A stretch of 64,000 nt of DNA from Thelephora terrestris. Taxonomy: Eukaryota; Basidiomycota; Agaricomycetes; Thelephorales; Thelephoraceae. This document shows, piece by piece, positions 23,979-46,521 of this stretch. The notes below the pieces were generated by a model that saw nothing but the letters and a program-made list of their open reading frames with translations, searched no databases and was not told the origin of the DNA. A program made the translations under genes and the position numbers. The stretch's first letter is position 1, and every line of letters begins with the position of its first letter. Where the stretch lies: contig WIUZ02000021.1 in the NCBI GenBank assembly GCA_015956445.1, forward strand, positions 620,001-684,000, given 5' to 3'.

Positions 23979-26319
23979 ATGCTGCTCTCAGTTGCTCTGT
24001 TCGTCTCCTTAACTACCTTTCTTGGTTGCGTCGCGTCAAGTACGGATCCCAATCCAAATCATGCAGCGGACGTGAGGAGGCCGCGCGGGCTTGCGCCCCG
24101 CCAGAATATTGCAGGGGTCAGGTTGGGTTCATCGAACAATACCTCGGGGTCAGGGATCACCCGCCTCGTTTTGGCCAGTGATCAGAGGTGCGTTTTGAGC
24201 TATCCTACCCTACTTCGAGCGGCCTTCAATGCTCAGCTCGATGACAGCTCATATTATGCCACCATTGCTGCGGGGAACATCACCTTCAGACTGGCGGTAG
24301 ACACGGCGTCATCGGACACGCTTATCGCCTCGACCGACTGCGTGTCAAATGCCTGTCGCTCAATCCCAAAGTACCCACTGAAATATCAGAGCCCCACGTT
24401 CGTCTCTCTCAACGGAAACTCGACAACGTTCAACGTGAGCTACGCAGACGGAACTTGTGCGTGCAATTTTGATAGCGTCTACCGGCCCCCCATTTCATTT
24501 GTGATTCACCCCCTATATGCTGCAGTCTCGAGCGGGTATGTCGCTCGCGAGTCCGTGAGGGTTGCAAACCTTACTGTACCAGACCAAGCGTTCGGTAATG
24601 CCCCGTTCCTCCGCTGTCTTTTGGTCGATCAGCTGACTTCTGTTGGTTCAGGCGTTGTCAACGAGACGACCGTCTCCTTTACCAACGAAATCAGTGGTAT
24701 ATTGGGCCTTGGCTTCCCTCGCCTGTCCCAGATTTATAACACCAGTGCGCACGGTAATGATTTCCCTGCCACACGAGTCCCGAGAAGCAATTTCCTGACG
24801 TGAGGCATGATAGGAACTCCGTTCTTTTCGGCCTTGGCGCAGCGTGCGATCGTTGACTATCCCATCTTTGGCATCTATCTTACACGCAATTATACGGGCA
24901 CGCTCTCCCTTGGTCAGTCTATCAACACTATTGTCACGATAGCGAGAGCACTTACCAGCGGACCGCCATCAAAAGGTGCTATCGATTCGGGCGTCGTGAA
25001 CAACATAAGCAACATCGAATGGCACGATGTCGTTCCTTTCGCACCTCAGGGTGCCTCCAATAATGTGTCCAGCTATCTATATTGGGCGCTCCAGTTGTCC
25101 TCGATTTCCGTAAGTCTACGATCAGCACATAGCTTGAGCACGTCGCTAATTGGTTCTACACAGGTAAACGGCACCAGCTTTACCCCTGTCCCCACATATC
25201 CGTCCGTCACCCCAGATATCGGCTCCCTTGCAATCCTTGATGTGTAAGTATTTTCGTTACCCAGTAACGATCGCCACCAAATTTAGCGCAACTTCACTAC
25301 AGGGGTACCCCTGGGATATATGGTCCCTACAATGACGTTTCAAATATTTATTCCCTTATACCCGGTAGTAGGCTCGTGGATGAGGGTAAGTGCAAACGTC
25401 GTGTTTGGTTGACGGAGATTAACAAAACACAGGAGGGCAATGGGCGATTCCTTGCGACACTCTGGTCACCATGTCGTTCTCATTCGGGTGAGGAATCTTG
25501 GCGTTGTTGCAGCCAAAAACGGTGGTCTAACGTCACCTACCCAAGGGGTCAAAACTTCACATTACAGCCAACTGATTACATGATTGGTCCCGCATCTGGA
25601 AACCCTAACATGTGCCTGACGTGGCCTCGTGCGAGCCCCCCTACCCCAGACGGCGTCGACTGGCAACTGGGTACGTTTTGGACTGCTGTCATTGGATATG
25701 CGCTCATGCTCATTCCCTCCCAGGCTCCGCGTTTCTTCGTTCCGTATACAGTATCTATGAGTAAGTGTCCCTCACTTTCAGGGATCACCCCATTCAATAG
25801 TCTCTGGTCAGCTATGGTATCGATACGATGGAGCCCCCTATTATTGGGCTGTACCCCCTCAACAATCAAACAACCCTCCAGCAGAACTCTACCTTCCTCT
25901 CTTCATATTTCTCCCTCAATACCGCGACCATCGCCACAACACTTCCCAATTCATTACTCTCCCCGCCCTCCTACACAACCCCCCCTTACGCTTTCAATAC
26001 CTCTGTCGTTGCTGAACCAGGGGAAATTGTATCATCCGAACTGGGAACGAGTACCTACTCGCCAATGTTCGGGACCGTGCCCACTCCCCAGCCGACAGCG
26101 ATCCCGACAGTCAGTTTGACACCCAATGTGATCACGCTCCTCGTCACGAACCATAATAGCGTTTCGACGAGCGTAAGCACCGCGATGGATGACCAAGCCT
26201 CTCTAGGCGTTCCGTACGGGTGGACCAGCAGTGGGTCAATCGGACGATATACCGCACCATCTTTGGTGACCACGGCTTCATTATTCTTGCTTTCGTTCGT
26301 CGTGTTTTCGATGTCATAG
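23979..26319 (+). CDS. Pepsin-like aspartic protease (family A1), probably GPI-anchored
   Basis: A secretory protein with signal peptide (MLLSVALFVSLTTFLGCVAS) and pepsin fold. The first catalytic Asp is in the VDTASSD motif (about residue 88); DTAS in place of DTGS is seen in this mushroom subgroup. The middle holds NISGILGLGFPRLS-type flap and core sequence with many N-glycosylation sites. The second catalytic position reads AILDVGTPGIYGP, with Val where DTG has Thr. The C-terminus is Ser/Thr-rich and ends in a hydrophobic tail (LVTTASLFLLSFVVFSMS), as expected for GPI attachment or a C-terminal membrane helix. An intron at 24188-24247 joins ASDQ to SSYYATIAAG; five or six more lie downstream, approximate. 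Complete by eye. Whether it is an active protease is not certain given the second motif. Confidence 0.85.
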
Positions 26320-27807
26320 TGTGTCGCTCGCATATCCTTTCGTTTGGACTTCAGCAGTACCGCTGGGACTTGCGTTTGTTTCATCGTTGTTCGCGTATAT
26401 ACATATACTGGACACTGGTTAAAAATGGAGGGCTGCAAATCCCCCGACTCTCGTGCTTCTCGCAAAAGTTACAACCGAGCCTCGATTGAAACCTTTGGGC
26501 ATCACCAAAATGTACCGCAGCCATCCCTTCCCCAAAAACTCGCCGGGTTGGGCCAGGCTCTGGTCCTGGTCTGAAGAAGCCTTCTGTCCCCAAATTTCGC
26601 TGGGTACGGCCGCTTCAGTAGCAAGAGGTAAGTCGTGAGATATTTACCCACGCCGTGCAGTACCGCGGATTATGGACATGTCATCCCCCAATAGGGAGGA
26701 GATATGGAGGCCTCATGAGCGGAGGATGATCTGGAATGATCCCTCTGACTTGTTAAGAAAGGCATCCACTCATACCTACTGTGTTGGCATATGTCAAGAA
26801 TGGGCACCAGATGGCTGACTTCCCCCATCAGGAAAAACCTCTGAGGCTACGCGACACTAGGCGAAGCTAGGCGAAACTATGTGATCCCGGGTCCATAGCT
26901 ATAGCATAGCGGTCCTCCTAGCCCATCATTATTCGATAGCGAGCCGATAGCTATCCCATATAGCACTCGTAGCGTCTCTTAGACCCCACTAGCATGGTCG
27001 TAGGTAAACTTGCTCTCGTGATTGCCATCCAGATGAGTTTTAAAATTTAAAACCAGTATATTTGAGAGGGGGAACTCATGCAATGTACAAAGGAAATATA
27101 CGTATATAAAAGATAATATAGGGTGGGTGTAAACCCTGCATAAAAAGGTGATATGCTCCACCATATACGTGGCCAGACAAGTGTATGGTCGCAATCCAAC
27201 TATTAGATGTGGCACGCCGGTAGAGCTCAACATACATGTTGGACTCAAACGGGTCATCATCCTGCTGCAAAGTGGGATTGGGCCGATCGAGTGGCTCAGG
27301 GGTGATGTGTCGGCAGTTGCTGAAAGTGGGAATGAGCTCTCAGCTAGTTATCGACGGAAGGCCGGAACGGTTACCTCAGCCATAATCTGGCATGCCCCTG
27401 CCACCACAGAAGAGCATTTCAAGGTCGTTGTTATTCGCCAGGGTCAACGGGAGCATGGCGGCATCTCCAGAGGCAGGGTGGACTCGAATACTGCCACTGG
27501 GGGAGCAGGTATCACGTAAGGTGGAAGGATCCCATAGCATGGCGGAAACGTTGGCCTGGATGGACGCCATAAATACGTGAGCGTTGGAATTGAGACCAGC
27601 GGTCCCGACCATAAACCACCTGGCGGGGCGAGTGATGGGAAGAACTCGGCAGTTGATCCCTGCGGCACCTCCCTCAGTCAACACGTTGGCATTTTCAACG
27701 AGAGCCAACAACGTTGATGATACAAACGGCATGGGCCCTGTCGTAGCTCTGGTAGGTACGTCGTATTGAGCCAAGTCACCACTGGGGTTCAAGGGGTAAA
27801 ATGCTCA
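26320..27807. other. Boundary region between gene space and mobile-element block
   Basis: Sequence from 26.3 to 27.3 kb shows no gene; 26,860-26,990 has many short inverted ATAGCTAT-like pieces. From 27376 to 27792 (-) a 138-codon open frame contains RATTGPMPFVSSTLLALVEN and LANNNDLEMLFCGGRG; I do not recognise it. It lies directly downstream of the copia fragment on the same strand, so it may be element-derived, but no integrase or reverse transcriptase motif is visible in it. Confidence 0.4.
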
Positions 27808-28779
27808 TCAAACAGAACGGGACTTTGGGAATGGGTGGCATTTGATCTTTGCGAGCACACAGACTTCGCAAAAACCAACGTCCCAGTCGTTGACTGTGAT
27901 TCCTGCAAGGGTTCCCTTGTTGACAAGTTGGGCGATGGTGGAGGGTGAGACATGTGCGAGACAACGGTGTAGGTCCATGAGGGATACCGTGGTAAGGGAG
28001 TGATTGCCTGGGAGCAGGTTAATACCATTCTTCAGGGCTTTGGTGGAACAAACACTCCAAAGGTCATTGTTGGATGGGATTCTCCCGACGACGTTGCCGT
28101 TCAATTGGTCGATGAGGCGGAGTTCCCCGTCTTCGATGAGGGTGGAATAACCGGCTTTGTCGACTCGGTTCAGGGAGATGAGGGTGAACGCAATGTTTGG
28201 AGCGTAGAGTACGTCGTGTAGGGTAGCTGAGGTGAAGGTATCTCCATTAGGGATTTGCACCTGGACATTGCCCTTGCCAATCGCCTCGAAGATTTCATTG
28301 TTGGCAGCGCAGATTGGCTTGGGAGTGATGAACTCAAAGTCAGTGAAGGCGTCGATGTATGGCAACATGTGGCATGTTGCTCCGCTGTCGTAGACCTCGA
28401 GGTGTTCCATTGGGTCACCACTAGCGGCGATTCCCGCGATTCCAATCGATGTGGTGGAACTAAGAGCAAGGTTGACTTCAATGGGCTCGGCGGGTTGCGT
28501 GGCCTCCTGTGCGGCATTCGCACGCATCATCTGACACGTGTTACGTCCTCCTTGACCGTTTTGGTTCTGGGGACGATTTTGGCCTTGGTTTGAGTTCTGT
28601 GGGTTGCAAATGGGAAGCAGGTTAGACGCATGCTGCAGTCCTCCCTCGGATCGACAGTCCTTAAAGTCATGGGTATGGCGGTACTTGCACTTCTCGTTTG
28701 TACAGCGGTTGGGCTTCTTCTTGCCGCATTTCGAGGCTGAAGGTCCCTTCGGATTCGTGTAGAGTGCCACTGAGGTCAA
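27808..28779 (-). mobile_element. Ty1/copia fragment (nucleocapsid, protease, pre-integrase part)
   Basis: A fossil piece of a Ty1/copia polyprotein of about 323 codons. In order it shows a Cys/His cluster (CTNEKCKYRHTHDFKDC), the retropepsin active site (YDSGATCHM), and a GAG-pre-integrase region with LHRCLAHVSPSTI and CEVCVLAKIKCHPFPKS. The integrase core, reverse transcriptase and RNase H are not found next to it, so it is a truncated copy; the surviving frame itself is open. The repeat immediately upstream (28814-28981) begins with TG and may be the remains of its 5' LTR. Age cannot be estimated without the second LTR. Confidence 0.85.
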
Positions 28780-28813
28780 TGACCCTGGTGTGCCTCCATT
28801 CGTGATCTGCAGC

Positions 28814-28981
28814 TGTCGTGCTCGCGGGTGGTGTAGTTTTATGTTCTATACAGAAGATAACTAGACCCAGTTGGTTTGCTTAGAGACTAAGTGTATAGAA
28901 GCTAAGCAGGCTGGTTGAGTAGTCTATGAACGCGACTAACAACTCCACAGGGTGAGCAGGGTTCCTCTTTCCGGCTCTCGG
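28814..28981. repeat. Dispersed repeat R1, copy a (LTR-like end)
   Basis: About 168 bp starting TGTCGTGCTCG and ending TTTCCGGCTCTCGG. It recurs in direct orientation at 38745-38912 with only a few differences. Here it abuts the start of the copia frame, as a 5' LTR would. Confidence 0.8.
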
Positions 28982-29442
28982 TGTGATGATTTCGCCGTTT
29001 TACCCACTTTAATTCCCTTTATTTAACGCCTCATCACCACTAAGTCAGTTGGTGCCCTGCCCTAAACACGGCGGTAAACTGTTTATTATGCAATATGCCC
29101 TATGCTTAACGACTCAAAGTCCAATACGTGGAACGTGCTACTAGTCAAGATACCCCAGAAGACCCGAGGTATAATACGTGAACATGTACCGGCGGACCTT
29201 CATAAGAAGATCCCCCCTACCTGGCCCTCCGTTGCCCCTGGACGACTAGTAGATATTCAGGCTACCGACAACAAGGGATGTATTAATAAGCAACGCGCGC
29301 TGACCTCTCGCAGAAGTCAACCGACTTATTAATCTGACCCTTGGATTGGACTTATGAAAACCATTATGCTTTACGACTCATGGATCACACGCAATGAACA
29401 ATATAGAAGATTCATTGGAAGCCAATAGTACAAAAGAGTTAT
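28982..29442. other. Short gap downstream of coiled-coil gene
   Basis: No gene recognised. Contains one of the GTCGTAA motifs (as TTACGAC, near 29371) that are over-represented across 29-42 kb. Confidence 0.4.
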
Positions 29443-30706
29443 CTAATCAATATCTCTTCGGATCCTTTGTACTACTTCCAACGCCGACCTCACCAACTCC
29501 TCATTCACCCAGTTCTGCTCCCGGATCTCGTTCGGGTCTACGTCCGATAGGTCGTCGTAATCTGGAAGCTCTGTGTCAGAGTTCGGTTCGCTATCAGGAA
29601 CGAACTCGGCATACGGATCATACTCCAGAGCAGGCCATTGACGGCGACTACCCCAAGGAGTAGATACGAACCCAGGACGAGGAGTGTCCCTACGGACGAC
29701 TCCTATGTTCTGGTAGAACTCGTCGCTCCCGATCTCGATAACCTCATCATCAACGGGAACCAACCTGTTCTCGTGACGAACCAACAGACGAGCAGGCGGC
29801 GACTCAGCCCGGTTAGGGATGATCGGCGACCCGGCCCGATGCAGAACCTCATCCCCTTCCTCTTCTTCGACTTGGACCTCCGGCTCGTTACACCTCCTCT
29901 GGAGATCCCGGACTTCTCCGGTCAACTCGGAGACACGACGAGTAAGGCGAACCTAAAGGAATAGGGTTAGAAGATATCAAAAAACCTTCAACCCCTACCC
30001 CTTACCTTATCGTCCTCCAACTCTCCGGTCTTAGTGACCAGAGCCCGGACCAAGTCCTTAAGAGTGGTCACTTCTCCCTAAAGGAAATGTTGGGTTAGAA
30101 AAGTCAATTATCTCCCGACCCCACATTTACCTTCAGCAAATCAATATCAGCCCCCTGTCGAACAACGCTATCCTCTTGTCCATGAATAACCCCCTGCATA
30201 TCCTCTTTCCAATTCTCCAAGGCTTCTATCTCTTCGCGACGACCATCGACTCGCTCATTAACATGAGCTATCTCGTCCATCAACATAGACCCAACGTTAC
30301 CCGTATGGATAACGCTAGCCTCCAACACGGAGTTGAAGGTCTCGTTGGTCTCGGTGACGAACTCGACACCCCTATTGAGGAGTTCGGTCGCATAAGGGTT
30401 TGTCTCGATACGCGCCAACTTGCGCCGAGACACCCTACGAGAAGCCTGGATAAAATCCCTGAAACCTAAAAGGAGTTAGCTTGGTTTCCTAGATCGGAAT
30501 TCGCAAGCAGGGCCCCCACCTAAATCAGAGAACCCCTCATTAGGGTCGGCGGTGGCGGTCCGGTCCATGACAGCTCCCAAAGTAGGATAAGGGCGGGACG
30601 GATCACGGCGGGCATGGGAGAAGCGGTCGATATTGTAATTGTTCTCCTGAACAGGAGAGTAGGAAGAAGAGCGACGAGTGGGATTGCGAGTAGAGGCACG
30701 AGGCAT
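29443..30706 (-). CDS. Unrecognised four-exon coiled-coil protein (accessory gene 1)
   Basis: Four exons fit exactly with GT-AG introns: 30706-30520, 30465-30131, 30077-30006, 29952-29443, giving 1104 nt (367 aa). Residues 1-62 are basic and low complexity (MPRASTRNPTRRSSSYSP). Residues 63-200 are rich in charged heptads (RVDGRREEIEALENWKEDMQ; LKDLVRALVTKTGELEDDK; RLTRRVSELTGEVRDLQRR), a long coiled coil. The tail is acidic and Pro-rich (DDEVIEIGSDEFYQ; PDSEPNSDTELPDYDDLSDV). A TATA box (TATATAAC, 30772-30765) lies 60 bp before the ATG. The exon layout resembles that of the gene at 35378-36981. I know no family for it. Intact introns and frame argue against decay. It lies among LTR-like repeats without reverse transcriptase; host gene or passenger of a non-autonomous element are both possible. 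Confidence 0.7.
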
Positions 30707-31400
30707 GTTGACTATGTGTAACAAAGGTGGGTTTGTTGGAAGACCAGTCATCCAACCCCCTTTGGTTATATACCAAATGCCACGCCCCTTCCACGACTCA
30801 GGAGTTGAGTCATCATTTCTATTGTTTACTGCGCATGACCCACATGACATCATATGCCCCTATTTCTTAGTCATATGCTCCCCTTTTGCCATTGGCTGTT
30901 AGTCAGCCATACCCACATTCCTTCCGAACATTCTCAGGATACGTCATGCTTTGTAATTGCTCTGTAATGCTCTCAAATTGCTATTGGCCGCCACACTTCC
31001 GTTTATCAGCTGATAATTTGTAGCATTAGTCACCACGTAACGCACAGACCATGCAGTGCTGCGCACGGACCATGTTTGTCTGTGTTTGTATCTTTAGGGT
31101 AGTTACATGTCACTGTCACGTCACAAATCTAAGTAGTATATATACTCAGAGTAGTTTAGCCTGTACTCCTTAGATTTGTTATCATCAGACTCTCCGTGAC
31201 CTCTACTGCTGTGTGCTTAGAGCAAGAGTGCCTGAAGACCCTTGTCTCCTTCTTTCTCCTCTTCTCCAATCTAGTCTGTGAAGAGACTTCCGATATCCCT
31301 GGGTTTGCAACAGGGTTATAACTGTGTGTTTGACCCCTGCGTGTGATAGGTTTGGATAGCAAGAGTGCTATTGGACTGTAGAGGTCGCGTCGGCCTGACA
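30707..31400. other. Promoter-like region with TATA boxes, no gene seen
   Basis: The left edge is the promoter of the leftward coiled-coil gene. A perfect palindrome TTATCAGCTGATAA is at 31003-31016, and a rightward TATATATA box at 31137-31144 is followed by a pyrimidine-rich leader, the layout of an LTR U3-R region. No reading frame with a recognisable product follows on the + strand. Confidence 0.5.
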
Positions 31401-31508
31401 CTCGGACCTGATGAGTTCGCTGAGGGATCTACTCTGTGAGTGTGTCCTTCAGTATTATTCCAAGGGAATCAGACGTACTATGTCACTCAGTTGTTCCTGT
31501 TCCTTGAT
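31401..31508. repeat. Dispersed repeat R2, copy a
   Basis: About 108 bp from CTCGGACCTGATGAG to TGTTCCTTGAT. A nearly identical direct copy is at 38908-39015, directly after repeat R1 there. Here it is joined to R3 instead. Confidence 0.8.
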
Positions 31509-31598
31509 GTCAGGGCCACTCTACCCCAACAACTACCAGTGCACTGAGCTGACTCTGCAGAGTACCCACTAGTCCAACTAGCTGTGAGAGAACGATCA
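31508..31598. repeat. Dispersed repeat R3, copy a (inverted partner at 38.3 kb)
   Basis: About 91 bp starting TGTCAGGGCCACTCTACCCC and ending GAGAGAACGATCA. Its reverse complement, somewhat diverged, lies at 38267-38358. The TGTCA start and opposite orientation fit LTR ends of two insertions. Confidence 0.75.
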
Positions 31599-31935
31599 TG
31601 TCAGGGTTGAAGGCCTGCTTACTGTCTGGGGGACGTGTCACGAATGCGTGACATAGTAAGGAAGATCACACAGATAATTCAAGACATTGGTCTTATTCGC
31701 AGTCGCAGTAGTAATGATACAAAAGGAGACAAGAAAGAAGCTAAACGAGGAGGAAAAGATCTATCTTACAAACGCAGTCCTGATCTACGGACAACAATGA
31801 GCGAAGTGGAAGGGATTGTATATCGACTGAGGACAGTAAGTGTAATCTCGAGATATCGGATCCACCCAGCAGTCTCAACACCCTAGAACATCGTGCTCCA
31901 AACCATCAAACATGTCCTTCCTCACTGAATCTAAC

Positions 31936-32602
31936 CCTTCATGGACTAGATCGAATCCATACTTTTCCTGAAGACTCGCTACCTCCAACTTCAGCCGCAT
32001 TTGAACCTGGTGACTCTTGCTTGACGGGCAACACCACTGTCCAGAACGAGTCATCGGACTCTTGCACTCTTTCTTTGAGGTCCTCGCCACCATCTGAGGA
32101 ACTGGAGCAGGACTCCAGGGAGGGGATTGAGGAAGAGGGACTCCTTGATCCTGGTGGTGTCGGAGGGACAACGGGGGAGTGAGGAACGGGGTCAGTACAA
32201 TATGCCCCTCGGCACTGGTGCCCGAAATAGCGGAAGAGAGATTCCTGGAATGGTTTCCAATGTTCCAAGGCAAAGTGAGTGAAGTCTAAGACTGTTCACA
32301 ACAACATACATCACATCCATCTGACCCTCCAACTTCCTGATACGATCTTCCCTCTCTTGCTCCATTGCGTCCCTCAAAGGGGAAACACCAGGAGCCCATC
32401 GTTGAGTCCGGTTAGGGTCTTCATAACCGGCCTGTTCCCAAAACTGAGAGGGAGCGTTGTGGGCCGTCAAGAAATCTACGGCGACCTTGTTGTCCTGAGC
32501 GATGTTGGTAGGAGTGTCATACAGATGCTGTTCAACATCATAGGGGGTGTCATCCTTGTAGGAGACAGAGACAAAGGGGGTGGCAGTGGCGTTAAGAGAC
32601 AT
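31936..32602 (-). pseudogene. Unrecognised duplicated gene, left copy (broken)
   Basis: Starts MSLNATATPFVSV at 32602 and parallels the intact right copy: YDVEQHLYDTPTNIAQDN, AVDFLTAHNAPSQFWEQAGY, a coiled coil (RIRKLEGQMDVMYVVVNSL), then LFRYFGHQCRGAYC and an acidic Ser/Pro tail. It looks broken, with about one interruption. It shares its TATA-like box position and leader with the right copy. Because it sits in a repeat-bounded block it may belong to an old element, and it is treated as a fossil. Confidence 0.65.
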
Positions 32603-32975
32603 AGTAGCAAAAGGTTGTTTATGAGAGGAGGAAGTTGTTGTGAGTTGGTGGGAGTGGAAAAGAGATGATGAGGGAAAAGACGAAGGCAAGCCACAGCCTA
32701 AATATGTCACGAACGCGTGACATAGTAGCCAAAATCGCACAGGTAATCCAAGACATTGGTCTTATTCGCAGTAATAATAGTACACGAGTGGTTAAAAAGA
32801 ACTACAAATTCAGACAAGAACAAACAGGTCGACATCGCAGGAACAGTTCTGGGGAAGAGGGCAACGATGAGCGAAGTGGTGAGGGTTATAAACGCTCTCA
32901 GGACAGTAGGACCACTCTCGCGTCACCGGATCCTGCCAACATTCTCTACACCCCAACACATCATGAGAGAGACTC

Positions 32976-33713
32976 TCATACATCTCTCGTCGCACGTCCA
33001 GCAAGGCCCCGCTCACTAAGGAGAACCCATAGCGGTCTTGGAGACCCGCCACTTCCACCTTCAACTTCATCTTCACCTGCCGTGACTTGTCGGAGGGACG
33101 ACAGCGTTGACCAGAACGAGTCATCGGACTCTTGCGGGTCTTCTTCTTCTGGGACCTCTCCACCATCTGGTGAACTGGGGCAGGACTCCAGGGAGGGGAT
33201 GGAGGGAGAGGAACACCCTGATCCTGGCGGTGGCGAAGGGACGACTGGGGACTTGCAAGGGGGGTCGGTGCAATAGGCCCCGTGGCATTGGTGTCCGAAA
33301 TATCGGAAGAGAGATGCCTGGAAAGGTCCCCAATGTTCCAAAGCAAAGTGAGAGAAGTCATCATTCAAACTGTTCATGATGACGTACATGCGGTCCACGC
33401 GCTTCTCCAACTTCGCGATCCTATCCTCCCTCTCCCTCTCCATGACGTCCAATAAGCGAGAGGCCGCAGGGTGTTGAGCCTGCATCCGAGGCGAGGGAAG
33501 CCTGGGGTCTTCGTACCCAGCCTGTTCCCAGAACTCGGCAGGGGCGTTATGAGCGGTAAGGAAATTGATGGCAACCTGGTTGTCATGGGCGATGTTGGCG
33601 GCAGAGTCGTACAGGTGTTGCTCCACGTTGTAAGGAGCATCCGTCTCGAAGGACGGGGTGAAGGGGGTGGCGACGGCATTGAGCACGGCATTGTTGGCAG
33701 TGAAAGAAGACAT
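32976..33713 (-). CDS. Unrecognised duplicated gene, right copy (intact 245 aa)
   Basis: A single open frame of 245 codons starting MSSFTANNAVLNAV at 33713. Visible parts: an N-terminal module (YNVEQHLYDSAANIAHDNQ; FLTAHNAPAEFWEQAGYEDP), a short coiled coil (REREDRIAKLEKRVDRMYVI), a conserved FRYFGHQCHGAYCTD with two Cys, and a Pro/Ser/Asp/Glu-rich tail. A TATTTAAG box (33810-33803) lies about 95 bp upstream of the ATG. The N-terminal module and the FRYFGHQC block are the best conserved between the two copies, which suggests protein-level constraint. No family is recognised. It could be host-derived or a passenger of a non-autonomous element. Confidence 0.6.
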   Translation of the reverse strand: MSSFTANNAVLNAVATPFTPSFETDAPYNVEQHLYDSAANIAHDNQVAINFLTAHNAPAEFWEQAGYEDPRLPSPRMQAQHPAASRLLDVMEREREDRIAKLEKRVDRMYVIMNSLNDDFSHFALEHWGPFQASLFRYFGHQCHGAYCTDPPCKSPVVPSPPPGSGCSSPSIPSLESCPSSPDGGEVPEEEDPQESDDSFWSTLSSLRQVTAGEDEVEGGSGGSPRPLWVLLSERGLAGRATRDV

Positions 33714-33884
33714 AGTAGTAAGGGGATCGTTGAAAAGTAGTACTGGTGTTTGGTGGGAGTGGAAAAGAGACGATGAGGGGAAACGATCATTAATCCCCCT
33801 GACTTAAATACATCCTGACTCAAAGGAAACCGAAAAGGGAAAACAAAAACTCACTATCCATTAAACGTCCCCATTAGGGTAAAC

Positions 33885-34233
33885 GAACCCTCAGCCCCAA
33901 TCACGATCAAACCAGAGAAATCCCCATCGATTACGGGAAATCCCCATCCGCCTTCTACTGCTACCTGAAACGAGAGAAGTCCCCACCGATCATGGGAAAT
34001 CCCCATCAGTCTTCTACTACCCCCGTCGATCATGAGAAATCCCCATTGTGCTTCTAATAAACTCCTTACGACTATTCCCCTATTTCATTTCGTCATTTGT
34101 CGTTCTAGAGTCCCACTTCTCTGACTCATTCCCCCTGCCCTAAACTACGCACAGACCATGTTGACTCCTGTTTGACTCGTTGTAGAATAATGACTCCTGT
34201 AGAGGATTGGGTATATAAGGAAGAGCGTTCGCT
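33885..34233 (+). repeat. Dispersed repeat R4, copy a: LTR-like promoter with GAAATCCCCAT motifs
   Basis: About 350 bp rich in GAAATCCCCAT repeats, ending with GTATATAAGGAAGAGCGTTC (TATA at 34212-34218). The same sequence occurs directly at about 38393-38744. Upstream repeats followed by TATA and a pyrimidine-rich leader are the layout of an LTR U3 region; here it drives the 207-aa gene at 34362. Confidence 0.75.
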
Positions 34234-34361
34234 CCTTTCTTTCCCCATTCTCAATCTCTTCTGTACTCCTCTACCCACAACCTGAATAAAAGTAAGCTGA
34301 GGAATTCTCCTCACACATTACCTTCTCTGACTCCTTTCAGCAGGAATCCTCCTGCCAGTGT

Positions 34362-34985
34362 ATGTTCAGTGCCCCAAACCCCTTTCCCTCTACCAGTCCC
34401 GTCCAGCGACCCGTCATCCCTGACGCCAGAAGATCTATCTGGGAGTATAAGCTCATCAGAAGTCTTCAAGTAAACCGAACCGCCGGTTTACTTACCCATT
34501 TTCCCTACTACCGACCCTTTGCAGCTCTTGACGCCGGAGTCACTACCCCTCCGTTTCTACTAGGAGCAGATCATCAATTCCTCTGGAATTCAGATCTTAC
34601 TGAGAGCGTCCTTGCGACTGTCTACTTCAGTATCAGCCCAGCCTTTTACTTCCCTTCTCCACGTGTTCATCTCACGACTAACATCCACACCCACTCCCCT
34701 GCTATTATCGTTCTTTGGTGGGAAATCCCAACTGAATTACCTTACTCTGTCATAGAATACCTCGTCAACTTCGAACGACTTAGTGATCAAGACTTCGAAC
34801 CGTTCGTACAGCAACTCAATCAGTTCTGCCAAGACTACCACTCGCCCGTTCATCCGTATCAAACCGAATCACCCCTCTCTCTTGATATTCCTCCTCCCCT
34901 CGTCTCCACGCCCGGAACCCCCTTCAAAACCAGACCCGACACCCCTCACCCCACTGCTAATCCTCTAGCGCCCCACAAACAGTAA
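34362..34985 (+). CDS. Unrecognised 207-aa protein behind an LTR-like promoter
   Basis: Single open frame starting MFSAPNPFPSTSPVQRP and ending NPLAPHKQ. The middle has a globular appearance (RSIWEYKLIRSLQVNRTAG; ADHQFLWNSDLTESVLATVY; SPAIIVLWWEIPTELPYSV; LVNFERLSDQDFEPFVQQL), and both ends are Pro/Ser-rich. A TATA box lies 144 bp upstream, and a 49-nt GT-AG intron (34292-34340) fits within the 5' leader. No family recognised. It points toward the leftward coiled-coil gene at 35378-36981. Confidence 0.55.
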   Translation: MFSAPNPFPSTSPVQRPVIPDARRSIWEYKLIRSLQVNRTAGLLTHFPYYRPFAALDAGVTTPPFLLGADHQFLWNSDLTESVLATVYFSISPAFYFPSPRVHLTTNIHTHSPAIIVLWWEIPTELPYSVIEYLVNFERLSDQDFEPFVQQLNQFCQDYHSPVHPYQTESPLSLDIPPPLVSTPGTPFKTRPDTPHPTANPLAPHKQ

Positions 34986-35377
34986 GCAGGCCTACAACCC
35001 TGACAAAATACATCCAGATCAATGAACAACCCAAACGGGTAAAGACAATGCGCCATTGTGTCAGGAACATGGTATTTTTAAACTTTTTATAACACACCCT
35101 TTCTTCGAACTCTTCTTACCAATTCTTATGTTTCGAATGCTTCATACTCCTTATCCTTCACACCAATCATTCGAAACACACACACGCGCGTACTATTCCC
35201 AGCGAATCCACAACGAGCTATACAAGTGCTATCCAATCCCATCAAAAATCAACGCTATCTACGGCAGGCCTCATGGTCATCACCCTTCCATCCCGGAGAT
35301 CGAAGTGCTGGCCCCTCCTTGCAAGGACCTCCCCAAACATGGCGTCACCATCTTCGGCACTCAGCTGAACGACCAGT

Positions 35378-36981
35378 TCAAGCCGATAGGAAGAGATACC
35401 TTCGAGCGGACCGATCAGCCTCCCAGATGTCACCGAACTGCTGAACACCTGGTCCCACATCTCCATCACCGGGTGACTGCTCGACAGTACTGTCGACGTA
35501 GTCGGCAAGCGACCCTCCGTCTCCCTCATCGGACCCCTGGGCGGAATCCTGTCTTGCGAGTCGTAGCTGGTGGCGAAGCTGGATCTCCGACTCGACCTGT
35601 CGGTAGGGACGGTTGACTCGATAGCGGAACTCTCGTCCCCCACCTCGACCAGACTGGTCACCATCCGACTCGACTGGACGAGGATAGGGATTAGCCGATG
35701 GAGCCATGCGATGAGCAGGACGGCGTCGAGAGCGTTTGCATCGTTGCCCCTTTGTCACCGGACGTACCTCGGCGACCCTCGGAGCATCTTCGGCTCGGTC
35801 AACCTCCATGACCTCATCCTCGATCTTCACCAACTGATGGATTGGCTGCAAGACGCAGCGCCCACAGTTCTCCTTGTCGGAAGCGGCCAAAGTGGAAGCC
35901 GGAGCTGGAGTCGGAACGGGAACCGCGTTCTCGATCGGAGGCATCGCGTAGGACGACGGGTTAGGCGATGGCAGTACCACCTCGTCGGCGTACTCCAGCT
36001 CGAACGGAACATCGGCGGTCCCCTGACCAACCAATTTGGGACCCTCCTTGCAGTTGCAGGTTTTGTCCTGCAAGGACTCGACCTGCGCTGTCAACACAGC
36101 CACCACGTTCTCGAGTTCTTTGGTCTAGGAAATGTCAGCTTCCATCATTCTAAGCAATGATGAAAGCAGCATTACCTTTTCATCCCTTCTGGCCAATGCC
36201 CCCTTAATGTTGTTGTCCCGAACCTTCAACCCGGCGATCAACTCTTGATGGTTGGCGACCATTGCCTCCAACGCCTCGTTCGTCCCTTGTTGGAAGGCTG
36301 CCAAGGTCTCCTTCATTTGAAGACCCTCTGTCGACAAACGAAGGACGTCTGCCTTCGCCTCCTTCACCTCACGCTCCAAACGTTCCACCTAGGCAGTTTG
36401 ATTAGTCGAGAGTCATACTCGAATATTCAAACGGAGAACCTACCTTGCTCTCCCCCTCCCGAACGAGCGACCACAACAACGACGTGGCGGCAGTAGCATG
36501 GCGTACGGCCCGAGGAACGGTCGCTCCGTGCTCCAATAGGTCCTGATCGTAGATTCCCCTTTGCAGGGTGTACCAGAGCTCCTTCTTGATCGGATGCTCC
36601 AACTCCCCGAACCTACCCCTCATTCGGAAGGCCACCTTCTCGGCGATGATCGTACGGACCCAGAGCTCGTCGTCCCAGGTCAACCCCACCAAATGAGGCA
36701 TCGTCTCCCTGAGACGTTCGGCGTCCACTTCCGTGACGACCTCCAAGATCTAGAAGCCGTTAGCTGGACATCAACGCCCAAAAGAACGTTCCTCTACCTA
36801 GAGGAAGGCGTTAGTGCTAGTCAACAAAAGCTCTAGCTCTCCCCCATACCTGGTCATCCGTGGTATAAGGAGTCCCAGCCGCACAGGCATAGGTCTTGCG
36901 AGCGGCGGCCCGACGGTCGATGCGAGAGATGGTTGAGATACCATTGGCGACTTTGTAGGTATGGTTGTTGGGGAAGGACAT
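35378..36981 (-). CDS. Unrecognised four-exon coiled-coil protein (accessory gene 2)
   Basis: Four exons fit exactly: 36981-36850, 36749-36444, 36388-36176, 36124-35378, summing to 1398 nt (465 aa). The N-terminus (MSFPNNHTYKVANGISTISR) is followed by a helical domain (LTWDDELWVRTIIAEKVAFR; IKKELWYTLQRGIYDQDLLE). Next is a coiled coil that continues across two introns (VERLEREVKEAKADVLRL; TKELENVVAVLTAQVESLQ). A CNCKEG cysteine pair, an acidic stretch (KIEDEVMEVDRAED) and a basic Arg-rich block (KGQRCKRSRRRPAHR) precede an acidic end. A CTATAAG box (37055-37049) lies about 70 bp upstream. The layout (exon number, coiled coil split by introns, acidic last exon) parallels the gene at 29443-30706, although sequence similarity is weak by eye. 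No function can be assigned. Confidence 0.65.
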
Positions 36982-38266
36982 GTTTTGGTAAGATGATGGG
37001 GAAGTTGCTGGTGTTGCTGATCAAGGATGGCTCCAAGAAGACGTCCTTCTTATAGCCTAGATCGGTGATCCTTCACGTGACCTACCTCGACGAACCTCAT
37101 TGGTCCGGGTCACATCAACTTCCGCCCCTGTACCATCATCGTCGGCTTACTACATCAAGCTGACACCTCGGCCCGCGGGACGGCCTTGGAAGAACTTCGT
37201 TCCGGAACGCCTAGAACGCGCGCGCACTAAAAATAGGTCTCAAGACCCTGATGACCCCTTTATGACATCACGAACCCCTTTTTACGACCCCTCATGACTT
37301 TACGATTACGATCAACCCTGGACCCTGATCACACACGTGGACAGTCACATCACAGTCTCCTAACCGGAGGAAGGACTCGCCGCTATTCGGAAGCATCGCC
37401 TTAGGATCCTTCTGGTTAGCCCAGCGCATGTGGAGTAGCCGTTAGCGTGAAACGCCGGCGAATCTGTAATCCCTCATGTCCCATGAGTCTAGGCCCGACC
37501 TCCTCATGTTCGGACGTACGTTGAGGTTACCACTTGTCCGTGATGCTGTTACCGCCTACAGACAACAAGGGATGTTGAATGTCTCTACTCCCGAATCCAG
37601 CTGGCAGAGGCCATGTAAAGGGAGATTGACACCTGGCCCTTGGGTGAGATCCCCAGGTACGAACTTTTACGACCCCATGCTCCTATTCCTTTTGGACTAG
37701 TGTTATCTTTACCCCTATGTTTCATGCAGACATTTCTTATCTCTTATGCAATCCTTCACACGCTAGTAAGGCCCTTTGTCTTTTATTCTCCCACGCGTCA
37801 CCTTTGTTCGCTTCCCTTACTTAGCGTTCTCACACTCCTTATCTCCCTTTGTTTGGACTTGATAAGGGTATATTAGGGTATTGACGTCATGGCCACTCCT
37901 TTAGTATAAGTAGCAACTGTGGCTGTATCGTAGTACCTTAGTTTTGTTACCTCAGGAAATCCTCTGCCCTTCTCAGCCCAGTTGCAGTTAAGGCCAAGTC
38001 AGAGTTTCTTGTTTGATCCAAGACATCCCCCATCTGCTCTCCCTCCCGCTCTGCGCGTCAACTGCGCCTCGTAACTATAGACTCTCCGCAGTCATATTAG
38101 AACACCTCGAGCGTCCAGTCGATCAACTGGTGGAGTCATCAATCCTGTTGTAGGGATCAACCCTTGCTTGTTAAACCGAACGAAGTACGGTTTAGGTTGG
38201 GTTTCTCTTTAGGATTTCGACCTGACTTGCAGTGACCTCGGACAACCTACCGGAAGAATAGAGACG
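36982..38266. other. Non-coding stretch with CRE-TATA promoter-like block
   Basis: No convincing gene. The left edge is the promoter of the leftward coiled-coil gene. A palindromic CRE (TGACGTCA) lies at 37882-37889, 15 bp before a TATAAG box at 37905-37910 on the + strand, followed by a pyrimidine-rich leader: another LTR-like promoter without a recognisable downstream product. Confidence 0.5.
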
Positions 38267-39015
38267 TGATCGTTCTCTCCCAAGCTAGTCGGACTAGTGA
38301 GTACTCTGCAGAGTCGGCTCAGTGCACTGGTAGTTGTTGGGGTAGAGTGGCCCTGACACATTGTTCATTATTTTCCCAAAAAGGATAAATGGACCCTTAA
38401 CCCTAATCACGACTCATCAAACCTCGAGAAATCCCCATTGATCATGAGAAATTCCCATCACTCTTCTATTGCTGCCATGAAACGCAAGAAATCCCTATCG
38501 ATCATGAGAAATCCCCGTCAGTCTTCTATTACTACCCTGAAACGTGGGAAATCCCCATTGTACTCCTAATGACTCATTATCTATTGTTCCCCTGTTCTGC
38601 ACTCGCTATTGATCATTCTAAGTCCCACTTCTCTGACTCATTTACCCTGCCCTAAACTACGCACAGACCATGTTGATTCTCGTTTGACTCATTGTACCAT
38701 TACTAAGCCTGTAGAGGATTGGGTATATAAGGAAGAGTGTTCGCTGTCGTGCTCGTGGGTGGTGTAGGGTTATGTTCTATACAGAAGATAACTAGACCCA
38801 GTTGGTTCGCTTAGAGACTAAGTGTATAGAAGCTAAGCAGGCTGGTTGAGTAGTCTATGAACTCGACTAACAACTCCACAGGGTGAGCGGGGTTCCTCTT
38901 TCCGGCTCTCGGACCTGATGAGTTCGCTGAGGGATCTACTCTGTGAGTGTGTCCTTCAGTATTATTCCAAGGGAATCAGACGTACTATATCACTCAGTTG
39001 TTCCTGTTCCTTGAT
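38267..39015. repeat. Composite of repeats R3 (inverted), R4, R1 and R2
   Basis: Four repeat families meet head to tail: R3 inverted 38267-38358, R4 about 38393-38744, R1 38745-38912 and R2 38908-39015. Each also occurs separately between 28.8 and 34.2 kb. R1 starts right after the TATA/leader of R4, so R1 seems to have inserted into an R4-type LTR. This is a pile of nested LTR fragments. Confidence 0.75.
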
Positions 39016-39157
39016 TAGACACTTATCTAGTGTGTGGGGGTTTGGTGGTGATTTGATGGGAATGGAGTTCCTGATCTAAGGGGAGATCAAGAGTGGAGGG
39101 AATGATCTACTGGGGTAGACCAAAGGGGAGGGGGAAAGAGGGGGATGCTCAAAGGGT

Positions 39158-39310
39158 GTGTTTGAGGCTGAATTCCTAAGGCTGTGCTTTGATGCTGTGC
39201 TTAGGGCTGTGCTTAGGGCTGTGCCTAAGGCTGTGTATTGAGGCTGTGTATTGATGCTGTGCTTAGGGCTATGCCTAAGGCTGTGTTGAGGCTGTGTCGT
39301 GTGACTAGAC
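39158..39310. repeat. GGCTGTGCTTAG-type minisatellite
   Basis: About ten degenerate copies of a 10-14-bp unit around GGCTGTGCTTAG, TGCTGTGCTTAG and GGCTGTGTATTGA. The leftward frame through it is Ser/Ala/Thr-rich and only reflects the repeat. Confidence 0.8.
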
Positions 39311-39900
39311 CTAAAAGGGAAGGTGTACACTTACACCTGGGGCTGTGCTAGATATGTTGTAAAGATGACAAGATATGTCGTAAAACTGGGAGGGTATAAC
39401 TGATACCCTAAACTTTGCTGCAGATGACGTCTAGTACGTCTAACTGATATGTCTTCAATAATCTTCAGATAATAAACCTATGTCGTAAAATATGTCGTAA
39501 ATCCTTGTGGTACTGCTAAATCTGGCTGTCACTCAGTCAGTCACTTCTCTGAGGTGGGGTTATCTGCCTAAAGTTTCAGACTTTAGTACTACAGATACCA
39601 AGATTCCAACGTCTCAAGTGTACTAAGCTTATTCAGTTCTTCTGACTTAGAACTTCTTCTCACAGAGGGTAGGGCTAAAATATGGTATGTGATTGCTCAA
39701 ATCACTCAACCAATCAGTCCTAAGGGAATTGAGGTAGATACTTTAGGGGGTAGATGTAGAGAGAGAGGGGGTAGATGTAAAGTGGGGGGGAAAAGAGACA
39801 CTGAGCAAAAGGATGCTTAGCTGATGTGAGGATAGAGCAAACTGTGCTTTTCTCCTGAGCAGTAGGTACCTGTTTTTCTCTTAGAAGTGGGGTTGAGGTC
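39311..39900. other. Non-coding stretch, no gene seen
   Basis: Contains three of the GTCGTAA motifs (39378-39500) and short G-rich runs. No reading frame or RNA gene recognised. Confidence 0.5.
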
Positions 39901-40095
39901 TATATACTATTTTACACAAGAATGTTCTAGAACATTCCAGCACTTTCCACAATGTTCCATAATATTCCGTCATGTTCCATCTGCTTCCACAGCATTCTTG
40001 GTGTGACAAGTTATCACATTTGTGACGTTCCGTCACCTTCTAGAATGTTCCAGCACTTTCCAGCATGTTCCAGGAAGTTCCATGATGTTCTAGGG
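39901..40095 (-). promoter_or_regulatory. TATA box with heat-shock-element array
   Basis: A perfect four-unit heat-shock element with 2-bp gaps lies at 39920-39937 (GAATGTTCTAGAACATTC). A three-unit one lies at 40038-40050 (TTCTAGAATGTTC). About ten more TTCCA or GTTCC half sites lie between and after them. A TATA sequence at 39901-39907 lies on the left, so the order HSE then TATA reads leftward on the - strand. HSF binding is known for nGAAnnTTCn arrays; use as a promoter here is inferred. No clear gene follows leftward, so this may be the U3 part of an LTR. Confidence 0.55.
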
Positions 40096-40198
40096 CTTTC
40101 CATGGCTATCTGATCTCTTGATCTAATCTGTAGGATCCTTATCTTATCTTATCTACAATGGATTATAATTAGATTTCTGTTATCTAATCTTATCTGGA

Positions 40199-40696
40199 TT
40201 AAACAATATTTAAATCATTTAAATAACCCATTGACCAGTCTGTTGAGTATAAATTGTGCGTAAAATCGTAAAATAAATAATGATAATCCTGGGGTCCGAC
40301 ATCCGCGGGAAACTTTAAACGATCGTCCCTGATCGCAATTATCCCAACAAGTCTGGGATTCATTATTTTATATTTACTGATTGTAAACACAATAGAGGTG
40401 GACGTACATTCCAAGGGATAGACCCTGACCATCTCAATCCTGATTGAATAGAAGAGGACTCTGAGATGGTACTGGAATTCCAGATCACTTTGTCCTTTTC
40501 TGAGGCGTAGGTGGAATGGATCACATCGGTGGTAGAGGTGGAAGAATTGTCCGTCGATTTCTCCTATCAAGTTGACTAGCGTCTGCAAGCGAACCCGTTC
40601 CTGTTTGTTGTAGTAGAGGTAGCAATAGAGTTCGAGGGAGGTAGTCCAATACTGGTCTATTCCTTCTGGCTCTACACAGTAGTCGATGATGTGCAT
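40199..40696 (-). CDS. Unrecognised small protein X (165 aa), family with Y and Z
   Basis: Reads MHIIDYCVEPEGIDQYW from 40696 and stops at 40199; the open frame extends to 40780, but this ATG matches the start distance of its two relatives. It shares the block Wx(T/S)S-x-EL-x-CYLYYNKQERVRL with the two proteins to its right. The C-terminal part (FYSIRIEMVRVYPLE; LVGIIAIRDDRLKFPADVG) is longer than in the relatives. No family recognised. Location downstream of, and on the same strand as, a gypsy pol may mean these are element-borne. Confidence 0.45.
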   Translation of the reverse strand: MHIIDYCVEPEGIDQYWTTSLELYCYLYYNKQERVRLQTLVNLIGEIDGQFFHLYHRCDPFHLRLRKGQSDLEFQYHLRVLFYSIRIEMVRVYPLECTSTSIVFTISKYKIMNPRLVGIIAIRDDRLKFPADVGPQDYHYLFYDFTHNLYSTDWSMGYLNDLNIV

Positions 40697-41350
40697 GTTT
40701 TCTGGGAAGGGATGTTGGTTGTGATAGGGTCTTGCCGTTGAAGGCGATGAGCTGGCGGTTCCATTCGTGATCGCATCCAAACCTTTTTATTTGTAATGGG
40801 TTCGGCCTCATGTAAGGGGCAAGGTGGTAAGACAAATGCTTTGATAGGTTCTAGACTTAATTTAGTTTTTGACAGCTGGGCGCTGGAAGGGCAGAACATT
40901 TGACAGGTGAGGGTGTCAAGCGGGCGGAATGCTAACGGGCGGAATGTTACGGCTTAATATGGTTAGTAGCTAGGACGTTCAGAATACAAAAGGGGAAACT
41001 AATATAACTAAAAATAGAAATAACCGAATGGGGCCGAGACCTTGGGTCGGGTCCAGGCAAATTGACAAATTGGCATTCGATGTGACCAGGCGCCATCAGA
41101 GGTGCCGATCGAAGAAGGTTACATAAAAATTGAATAAGAAGGAGGGAGGGGAAAAGAGACGGTTCTTAGAAGGGTGAAGGGGCAAAGGGATTGGACGCGT
41201 GAATGGTGAAGTGATTGAGGATATATAAAAATCGGGACGAAATTTGATTGGAAGGGAGGGGGGGGATGGAAAACGGGACAAAACATGTATTGCTGGCGGG
41301 CGGAGCGGACGTTTGTATAGACGAGCAAAGGTATTGCTAAGGAGACGTTC
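40697..41350. other. Spacer, no gene seen
   Basis: AT-rich spacer with short purine runs between the two small genes. The leftward frames here are low complexity. Confidence 0.4.
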
Positions 41351-41641
41351 CTAACTACAAGGTTTAAGGTTTAACTGACGTATGTGCCGTTTCACCTGCC
41401 TTACAAACTTCTTGTCATTATCTACTAGTCGCAAATTAATGTAGGAATGAAGGAGAGGGTGGTTCAACCATCCGGCACATCCGGTTATGGTCCTCCGCTT
41501 GAGAGATTCTTTGAGTAGATACTGGCGTAGGCCCTTGTTCTTGAGTAGGTAGTTTAAGACGTCGCTTGCAGAGTTCCAGGATTCTCCCATATAGTTCTTG
41601 ATGGGAATGTGGTCTCTTGTTCGTTCTGACACGGGGGTCAT
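41351..41641 (-). CDS. Unrecognised small protein Y (96 aa), family with X and Z
   Basis: Open frame of 96 codons. The core ESWNSASDVLNYLLKNKGLR is followed by a basic region (KESLKRRTITGCAGWLNHPL) and a Lys/Arg-rich end (FVRQVKRHIRQLNL). The core lines up with protein Z (SVSHILLYLLKHKKARQQI) and protein X. No known family. The basic end could bind nucleic acid, but this is a guess. Confidence 0.45.
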   Translation of the reverse strand: MTPVSERTRDHIPIKNYMGESWNSASDVLNYLLKNKGLRQYLLKESLKRRTITGCAGWLNHPLLHSYINLRLVDNDKKFVRQVKRHIRQLNLKPCS

Positions 41642-42116
41642 CCGGATGATCCTGAATTTGTAGTGGCTTTTTCAAGGACCTCTTTAGCTATTCCTTTGGT
41701 TCGCTTGTGTACAAGTCCTACCGTTTCATGTAGGCGATAACATCAACTTGTTTCTTGTAACGTCGTGCAATTAACATGCTTGATGGGTAAAGTTCGATGG
41801 GGAGGATACGTAGGAGGTGGCGGTTGTTTGTGGTTGGGGGTCGTAATGTTGCTGGGTCATGATGTCGTAAGGTTCTATGGGTCATAAGTCGTAATGTTAC
41901 CGTGTTGCGTTGTCGTTAAGTCATTAAGTTCGTAAGGTAGGATGTCGATTTTTCTGGCTGGAGTCAGTTTCCTATTGTTGGCCTCTGCCGTCCTAGGCAA
42001 TATTCTTCTGCATTCTTATCTTCCTTAGTCATTCGGGGTAAATTAATGACGGTGGGAAAAGGAACTTTTTAAATTCGCGGGGGGGGGGGGGGCAGCTATC
42101 TACTTTGATTGGTAGT
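41642..42116. other. Spacer with GTCGTAA repeats
   Basis: Holds three exact GTCGTAA motifs (41850-41894) with degenerate neighbours and a 14-G homopolymer (42079-42092). No gene seen. Confidence 0.5.
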
Positions 42117-45900: not shown

Positions 45901-46521
45901 TAAGGGTATGTTCTTTTCTATCCATGGTTCATGCTCTATGGTAGGAATAATATAGTCTGAAAAATAATCACTACGAAAGGTTCCTCTTTCGTACTCATCA
46001 AAGGCAATGCTCCTTTCATTGATACAGAGTACATGCTGAAGTAGCTTTCGTTCTTCAGGCCATAGTTCCTCATGACTATCTACTGCTAGCTCTTTCATAC
46101 GTTCAGAGGTAATCTTGGGAGTAGGGGAAAATGTTGGAGGGTGAAAGGGTAACTTGGGGAGATTGAGGAGGGGGTCTCGGGGAATGGTACGCCGGGGTTT
46201 CTGATGTTCAGGGATCTGTATGGCTACAGGTCTCACTTTGTCACGTACTTTCTTGTACTTGAACACAGCACGGGGTGTATCATAAGGGAGGGTGGTTATG
46301 TTCGACTCTTCATCTTCATCTGAGTCATCAGACTGAGGCACTAAGCCAGGTAATTCTTTCCAAGATTCTTGGTCAGAAATCTCCTGCTCAGCTTGGGTAT
46401 CCCAGTCTGAGTCAGAGTCGTACCTAAGAGAGGTAACGGGGTTAGGGGGAATAGGGGGAGAAATTGGTCTTACCCAGGTCTTCTTAGTCCTGTCTACGGA
46501 CTTGGTAGCTTGGTGGGACAT
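42950..46521 (-). mobile_element. Ty3/gypsy element 1, pol region (RT, RNase H, integrase, chromo-like end)
   Basis: A fossil Ty3/gypsy pol with a main frame of 1084 codons. In order: an acidic N-terminal extension, reverse transcriptase (NAGVYERAQTAYRSRWFYV; LPMGYVNAPAEFQDCM; GVFIDDIPIKGP), RNase H (VYLSVDTSVHGIGMIL), the HHCC zinc finger and integrase core (TDNGPSFGKEF; SPYNSQANGPVERGHYNIRE), and a C-terminal YMGPYRVIRRT chromo-like segment at 42950-43234. The main frame is long and open, with about one interruption before the C-terminal part. No gag or flanking LTR pair was identified, so it counts as broken. It belongs to the same lineage as element 2 (57-64 kb). It is probably fairly young, judging by the open pol. 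Confidence 0.9.

Follow-up and report, generated by a model that had tools for sequence, protein, structure and literature searches.

Nested insertions of probable long terminal repeats carrying intact predicted genes in Thelephora terrestris

The stretch at positions 28814-39015 of a 64,000-nucleotide window from the basidiomycete Thelephora terrestris is a nest of insertions, most probably solo long terminal repeats (LTRs), and not a single gene cluster. The window covers positions 620001-684000 of contig C14 (WIUZ02000021.1) in an assembly of 40.6 Mb and 60 contigs, to which all genome-wide counts below refer. Three intact units, designated E1, E2 and E3, each start with TG, end with CA and lie within a perfect 5-bp target duplication of their own (Table 1). 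E3, 3.3 kb long, corresponds to the LTR of a Ty3/gypsy chromovirus that is complete and self-priming, and it contains a predicted spliced gene. We consider it probable (roughly 0.75) that all three units are solo LTRs of Ty3/gypsy chromoviruses whose U3 region contains an accessory gene under a promoter of its own, E1 and E2 being placed there by analogy with E3.

The units recur throughout the genome. Unit-start motifs with at most three mismatches were found 214 times for E1, 268 times for E2 and 411 times for E3, and reversed control patterns gave no match; these counts are of starts rather than of complete units. Among the whole units fetched, E1 and E2 of the window included, perfect flanking 5-bp duplications were present in 8/8 E1, 28/30 E2 (all except L016 and L036) and 12/12 solo E3 copies, so that a single LTR with an intact flanking duplication was seen in 48 of the 50. 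A further E3 unit among those fetched belongs to a full element as its 3' LTR, and two E3 copies (L049 and L055) have an altered terminal base. The initial annotation had asked whether each gene recurs with the same repeats at its ends, and each does, nearly all copies having target duplications. Its suggestion of a fast-evolving host gene cluster colonised by LTRs draws on spliced genes with TATA boxes that look cellular, but each gene recurs within the duplicated ends of its own repeat (8, 30 and 14 copies for E1, E2 and E3) and the starts number 214-411, which leaves this explanation with almost no probability. As a separate observation, the E2 5' terminus, TGTCACGAACGCGTGACA, forms a 7-bp perfect inverted repeat around AACG and is unchanged in 27/30 copies.

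The complete parent of E3 and its relative

A full element at C1:546891-559517 carries two E3 LTRs, whose starts are 9.3 kb apart, within an outer duplication TAATC. Its interior encodes a gag of 681 aa with a CCHC knuckle and a pol of 1322 aa comprising protease, RVT_1, RNase H, integrase zinc and core domains, a Tf2-1-type SH3 domain and a chromodomain. The primer site, GTAACAAAACTA, lies two bases inside the element and is complementary by eye to TAGTTTTGTTAC, located 34 nt after the TATA box of the LTR. The gag-pol domain set, the TG...CA LTRs with their outer duplication and this Tf1-type complementarity identify E3 as the LTR of a Ty3/gypsy chromovirus. A full element with reverse transcriptase (RT) and the same gene, which the initial annotation had named as the mark of ordinary elements, therefore exists for E3. 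Its report that the stretch itself is free of RT was borne out, with none among the listed gypsy and copia RT places and none by Pfam in the frames scanned. Of its proposal of non-autonomous LTR elements with cellular-style genes, the LTR character, the spliced genes and the RT-free stretch stand, but the units are single LTRs or LTR-like units and E3 has an RT-bearing parent.

Searching the genome with the E3 RT gave 8 places at 99-100% identity and 3 at 76%, and all 11 matches were stop-free. The relative with 76% RT identity at C12:1325805 has LTRs that are 99.93% alike over 2896 bases and a duplication GTTTT. Its LTR also contains an antisense gene, which shares 33% identity with the E3 gene (E3g) over 230 aa (E 5e-17) and has its exon 2/3 break at the same place. 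The primer-site pair of the 76% relative is altered on both sides, ATATCAAAGAT pairing with ATCTTTGATAT. Separately, two E3 pol copies lie 9310 bp apart at C23:1029462-1050481 with identical RT and LTR pieces, and this is likely a tandem of E3 elements with shared LTRs.

Predicted genes within the units and purifying selection

The five genes of the initial annotation correspond to five coding regions, namely E1g in E1, E2a and E2b in E2, E3g in E3 and an old copy of E2a, the last of which is frame-broken. E1g and E3g are predicted to have four exons each and to encode 367 and 465 aa, and the three introns of each, noted before, are GT..AG across the E1 and E3 copies compared. TATA-like boxes were also recognized by eye upstream of all four intact genes, in agreement with the earlier description. 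For the genes in U3, this box is 60-97 bases before the ATG and directed away from the sense TATA box, which is some 365-850 bases away (measured by hand). E3g is antisense to gag-pol, and E2b is a second, sense open reading frame (ORF) of E2 that follows the sense promoter.

E1g has a coiled-coil-like part, suggested by sub-threshold matches, followed by an acidic tail, and both features are present in E3g as well. Both contain a short motif (LVPVDDEVIEI in E1g and LVKIEDEVMEV in E3g, alike by eye) that, in our assumption, recalls SUMO-interacting motifs. Pfam and PDB searches with the LTR proteins gave nothing above cut-off and only weak coiled-coil-type matches. Exon 2 of E3g was modelled by AlphaFold2 as all-helical with a mean predicted local distance difference test score (pLDDT) of 54, and E2b reached a pLDDT of 33. 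An Rfam scan of 26000-42000 gave no match up to E 0.5.

The LTR genes are under strong purifying selection. The copies compared are those among the best-ranked hits that matched over their full length. Intact ORFs were found in 8/8 copies of E1g, 12/14 of E3g, 29/30 of E2a and 27/30 of E2b, and the six broken frames have a stop codon or a single-base frameshift. The mean pairwise ratio of nonsynonymous to synonymous divergence (dN/dS) was 0.043 for E1g, 0.205 for E2a, 0.050 for E2b and 0.109 for E3g, with mean dS of 0.23-0.56 and mean dN of 0.01-0.05, where dS was computed by the NG86 method, which ignores the strong transition bias. Furthermore, distinct gap patterns fell in exons in 0/7 cases for E1, 4/59 for E2 and 0/31 for E3, the rest being outside exons. 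Among eight full-length E3 elements (means of 28 pairs, the two on C23 being identical), exons 1-3 of the LTR gene had dN 0.0066, dS 0.299 and dN/dS 0.022, and the RT had dN 0.0030, dS 0.183 and dN/dS 0.016. The two ratios are similar, indicating that the E3 LTR gene has been under roughly the same constraint as RT during the spread of the elements.

Chance ORFs preserved only by the youth of the copies would be an alternative source of these frames. At the first two codon positions, changes confined to one copy amount to 0.24-0.92% per site and copy (0.0024-0.0043 at second positions), and most copies look young because these changes are few, as that alternative would have it. However, a mean dS of 0.23-0.56 stands against a mean dN of 0.01-0.05, a 33%-identical homologue is still present in the relative whose RT is 76% identical, the LTR gene of full-length E3 elements has a dN/dS of 0.022, and a dN/dS near 1 between element lineages was not seen, the observed values being 0.02-0.2. 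We therefore consider chance ORFs highly improbable.

The variation of synonymous sites was an observation apart. In E1, third codon positions varied at 0.12-0.20, noncoding flanks at 0.02-0.03 and introns at 0.04-0.06; the values for E3 were 0.10-0.18, 0.03-0.06 (noncoding LTR) and 0.05-0.12. In full-length E3 elements, RT dS was 0.18 with near-identical proteins, introns were at 0.05 and upstream noncoding sequence ranged from 0.013 to 0.16. Third positions of E2a (0.14) equalled the noncoding parts of E2 (0.12-0.14). The idea that synonymous sites are fastest throughout was thus weakened; it is true for E1, partly for E3 and E2b, and fails for E2a. The excess third-position change reflects either an unusual constraint on noncoding LTR sequence or favoured synonymous change, e.g. 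for escape from homology-based silencing.

Origin of E1 and E2 and the surrounding repeats

The following results weigh against the reading as chromovirus solo LTRs. No E1 or E2 was seen in a full-length element in a neighbour test of 80/96 gypsy and 73/99 copia RT matches (short partial ones omitted), for which 130 of at least 214 E1 and 115 of at least 268 E2 units were placed. The predicted self-priming sites were unmatched in the genome, the E1 search allowing as many as 3 mismatches and the E2 search exact matches only. E1 and E2 are grouped with E3 by shape only, as there is no homology among the genes or to the E3 gag: profile comparison of E1g, E2a, E2b and E3g with one another and with the gag gave nothing significant, the best pair being E1g and E3g (E 0.04, probability 1.3%). 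The youth and intactness of the copies are unusual for solo LTRs that are dead, and dN/dS for private changes was 0.07 in E1g, 0.57 in E2a, 0.32 in E2b and 0.23 in E3g; the high values in the last three are expected if some changes postdate insertion.

The sole RT in this test framed by two E1 or two E2 units on its own strand, the gypsy RT at C12:3174248 with an E1 on either side, itself belongs to an E3 element. Neighbouring units at 3-16 kb were on the same versus opposite strand in 13 vs 12 cases for E1 and 16 vs 26 for E2; in contrast, 35 E3 units included two same-strand pairs, 9326 and 9341 apart. Nine further units read on both sides were separate insertions, each with its own duplication: for E1, two on C10, two on C21 and C23:174961, and for E2, C14:103510, C45:2514167, C23:2460333 and C23:2463650. 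Five of these duplications were perfect 5-mers, those of C14, C45 and one C10 unit had one mismatch, and one on C21 reads 6 bp. For another eight E2 units, either a single flank was read or the unit is interrupted. E1 as a terminal-repeat retrotransposon in miniature (TRIM) at C10 and C21 was rejected, as the insertions are independent. More generally, the units do not fit TRIMs or large retrotransposon derivatives (LARDs), in which two LTRs enclose a short or non-coding interior: the close same-strand pairs at C10, C21 and C23 proved independent, and of the C45 pair one unit could be judged. E1 and E2 as copia LTRs were also rejected, the 73 copia RT places tested (out of 99) showing no association with either.

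Based on these observations, E1 and E2 might instead be LTR-shaped mobile units, i.e. genes between integrase-recognised ends, that are moved singly by a chromoviral integrase, for example as recombined single-LTR linear cDNA. The 214 E1 and 268 E2 starts without a paired form found, the nine further units each with its own duplication, and E1g, which is intact in 8/8 copies with a dN/dS of 0.07 even for private changes, speak for such units. On the other side, E3 has a proven parent and is itself rich in solo copies, with 411 starts and 8 near-identical pol places, or about 50 single starts per full element, so that an abundance of solo copies is usual in this genome. This ratio would predict 4-5 full parents each for E1 and E2, and fewer among the units placed (130 and 115), and young full copies may be missed by the assembly. 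E2 lies upstream of a gypsy RT 7 times on the same strand vs 2 on the opposite (downstream, 3 vs 3), and this small excess speaks for pol-bearing parents. We hence regard units moved singly as unlikely, and a form in which gene-bearing single-LTR units amplify without an internal region via a chromovirus integrase and require their own protein as about as unlikely. Solo LTRs with rare or missing parents are preferred for E1 and E2, because the E3 ratio implies few parents per many single starts.

The repeats around the units do not delimit a cluster. The initial annotation had placed its genes between two copies of repeats R1 and R2, and the repeats are real: the R1 copies 28812-28981 and 38743-38912 are 96% identical, the R2 copies 31401-31508 and 38908-39015 are 99% identical, and the inverted arms 31508-31583 and 38283-38358 are 96% alike. 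As a boundary they were rejected, since R1 and R2 together are one separate 271-bp gypsy LTR whose left copy is interrupted by the insertion of E1, and E1, E2 and E3 have separate ends and target duplications, so that the genes lie inside LTRs and not between them. An older E2-type unit at 31636-38744 hosts both E2 and E3; its similarity is 70-79% over two main pieces, and it contains the frame-broken E2a copy between 31939 and 32761.

The 271-bp repeat had 35 near-complete copies among the 40 matches scored, window copies included. Four gypsy elements, with RT at C8:118216, C59:189780, C56:1230598 and C56:1273521, each have a copy roughly 6.9 kb beyond the point where RT starts. The window's gypsy pol on the minus strand, at 43267-46545, has the copy at 38745-39015 at 6.9 kb beyond its RT (offsets by hand), and because the offset is the same, this copy is most likely the 3' LTR of that pol. 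A copia fragment at 27808-28845, with a pol beta-barrel domain and a weak gag-pre-integrase match, abuts the 271-bp repeat. Elsewhere in the window, 43267-46545 and 57209-61024 are two gypsy pol frames, 1092 and 1271 aa long and free of stops, whose RT regions match the E3 RT at 31-33%. An inverted repeat at 48708-49547, with 302-nt arms that are 98% complementary and a 236-nt spacer, adjoins a 1280-aa charged frame at 49487-53329.

Table 1 Features of the nested insertions (window positions)
Feature	Position	Strand	Basis
271-bp LTR, left part (R1), split by E1	28814..28981	-	repeat comparison
E1 target duplication CTCGG, left	28977..28981		
E1, LTR-like unit, 2419 bp, TG...CA	28982..31400	+	
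E1g exon 4	29443..29952	-	
E1g exon 3	30006..30077	-	
E1g exon 2	30131..30465	-	
E1g exon 1	30520..30706	-	
Presumed sense-promoter TATA box of E1	31137..31144	+	by eye
E1 target duplication CTCGG, right	31401..31405		
271-bp LTR, other part (R2)	31401..31508	-	repeat comparison
Fragment of inverted E3 LTR 3' end	31508..31602	-	
37-nt fragment of inverted E2 3' end	31599..31635	-	
Left piece of older E2-type LTR, containing an E2a homologue with broken frame	31636..32704	+	
E2 target duplication AAATA, left	32700..32704		
E2, LTR-like unit, 2301 bp, TG...CA	32705..35005	+	
E2a, one exon, 245 aa	32976..33713	-	
Presumed sense-promoter TATA box of E2	34212..34218	+	by eye
E2b, one exon, 207 aa, in presumed R-U5	34362..34985	+	
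E2 target duplication AAATA, right	35006..35010		
E3 target duplication CATTG, left	35054..35058		by eye
E3, chromovirus LTR, 3300 bp	35059..38358	+	
E3g exon 4	35378..36124	-	
E3g exon 3, coiled-coil-like	36176..36388	-	
E3g exon 2	36444..36749	-	
E3g exon 1	36850..36981	-	
Sense-promoter TATA box of E3	37905..37910	+	by eye
TAGTTTTGTTAC, presumed genomic-RNA 5' end, complementary to primer site inside full element	37939..37950	+	by eye
E3 target duplication CATTG, right	38359..38363		by eye
Older E2-type LTR, right piece	38359..38744	+	
271-bp LTR of another gypsy family	38745..39015	-	

Gene-bearing LTRs and known systems

LTRs are normally regulatory DNA, ordinary terminal repeats without protein genes of their own. 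In the units described here, U3 would have been swollen to about 1.5-2.9 kb by a complete gene with its own TATA box. Transcription of this gene would point away from the promoter of the genomic RNA; in E3 and in its relative the gene is antisense to gag-pol. Recombination between the LTRs after insertion would leave a solo LTR with the complete gene, and the protein could be produced independently of the genomic RNA, acting in trans as an accessory of the element. Tentatively, and as a guess that may well be wrong, the LTR proteins would be trans-acting regulators of element transcription or chromatin, made from a divergent promoter in the manner of retroviral regulatory proteins; the chief alternative is that they help in structure or packaging. 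A gene wholly within the LTR is doubled in each element and survives in the solo LTR, so that hundreds of loci in the genome may still encode element protein. Such units offer a testable system for trans-acting retrotransposon control and blur the line between solo LTR and gene, and genome annotation could count these LTR genes as host genes.

Accessory proteins encoded in or started from an LTR include sag of mouse mammary tumour virus and HBZ of human T-cell leukaemia virus, the latter being antisense and spliced. Unlike these, an entire multi-exon gene lies within a retrotransposon LTR here, and the likeness drawn is one of description. The plant element Retand likewise has an extra protein antisense to gag-pol; its ORF (TRP28) is placed between pol and the 3' LTR and suggested to be a regulator in the accessible text of PMC11963269. 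Lying outside the LTR, that ORF would be lost from solo LTRs, whereas E3g is inside; no TRP28 was found in the Pfam scans. The wtf genes of Schizosaccharomyces pombe are linked to Tf LTRs according to the available portion of PMC7175516, where they are flanked by LTRs, whereas the genes of E1, E2 and E3 are inside them. Bdelloid elements have extra ORFs and many solo LTRs, as far as the accessible part of PMC5408684 describes them. In the one open-access library searched, with texts available in part, no spliced antisense gene lying within a retrotransposon LTR was described, and the accessible part of a paper on fungal LTR elements (PMC3248453) contained none of the terms asked.

The closest likeness is to the Tf1/sushi-type chromoviruses, such as Tf1 and Cryptococcus Tcn1, which resemble E3 in gag, in the series of protease, RT, RNase H, integrase and chromodomain, in the TG..CA ends, in the 5-bp duplication and in the complementarity of the primer site to the RNA 5' end. 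The available portion of PMC7175516 describes self-priming for Tf1/Tf2 and gives it as a proposal for Tcn1. In a plant member of the Tcn1 clade the LTRs measure 440 bp and no self-priming site was found, according to the accessible text of PMC2864245. E3 and its relative are unlike the Tf1/Tcn1 chromoviruses in their LTRs, which measure 2.9-3.3 kb and enclose a gene.

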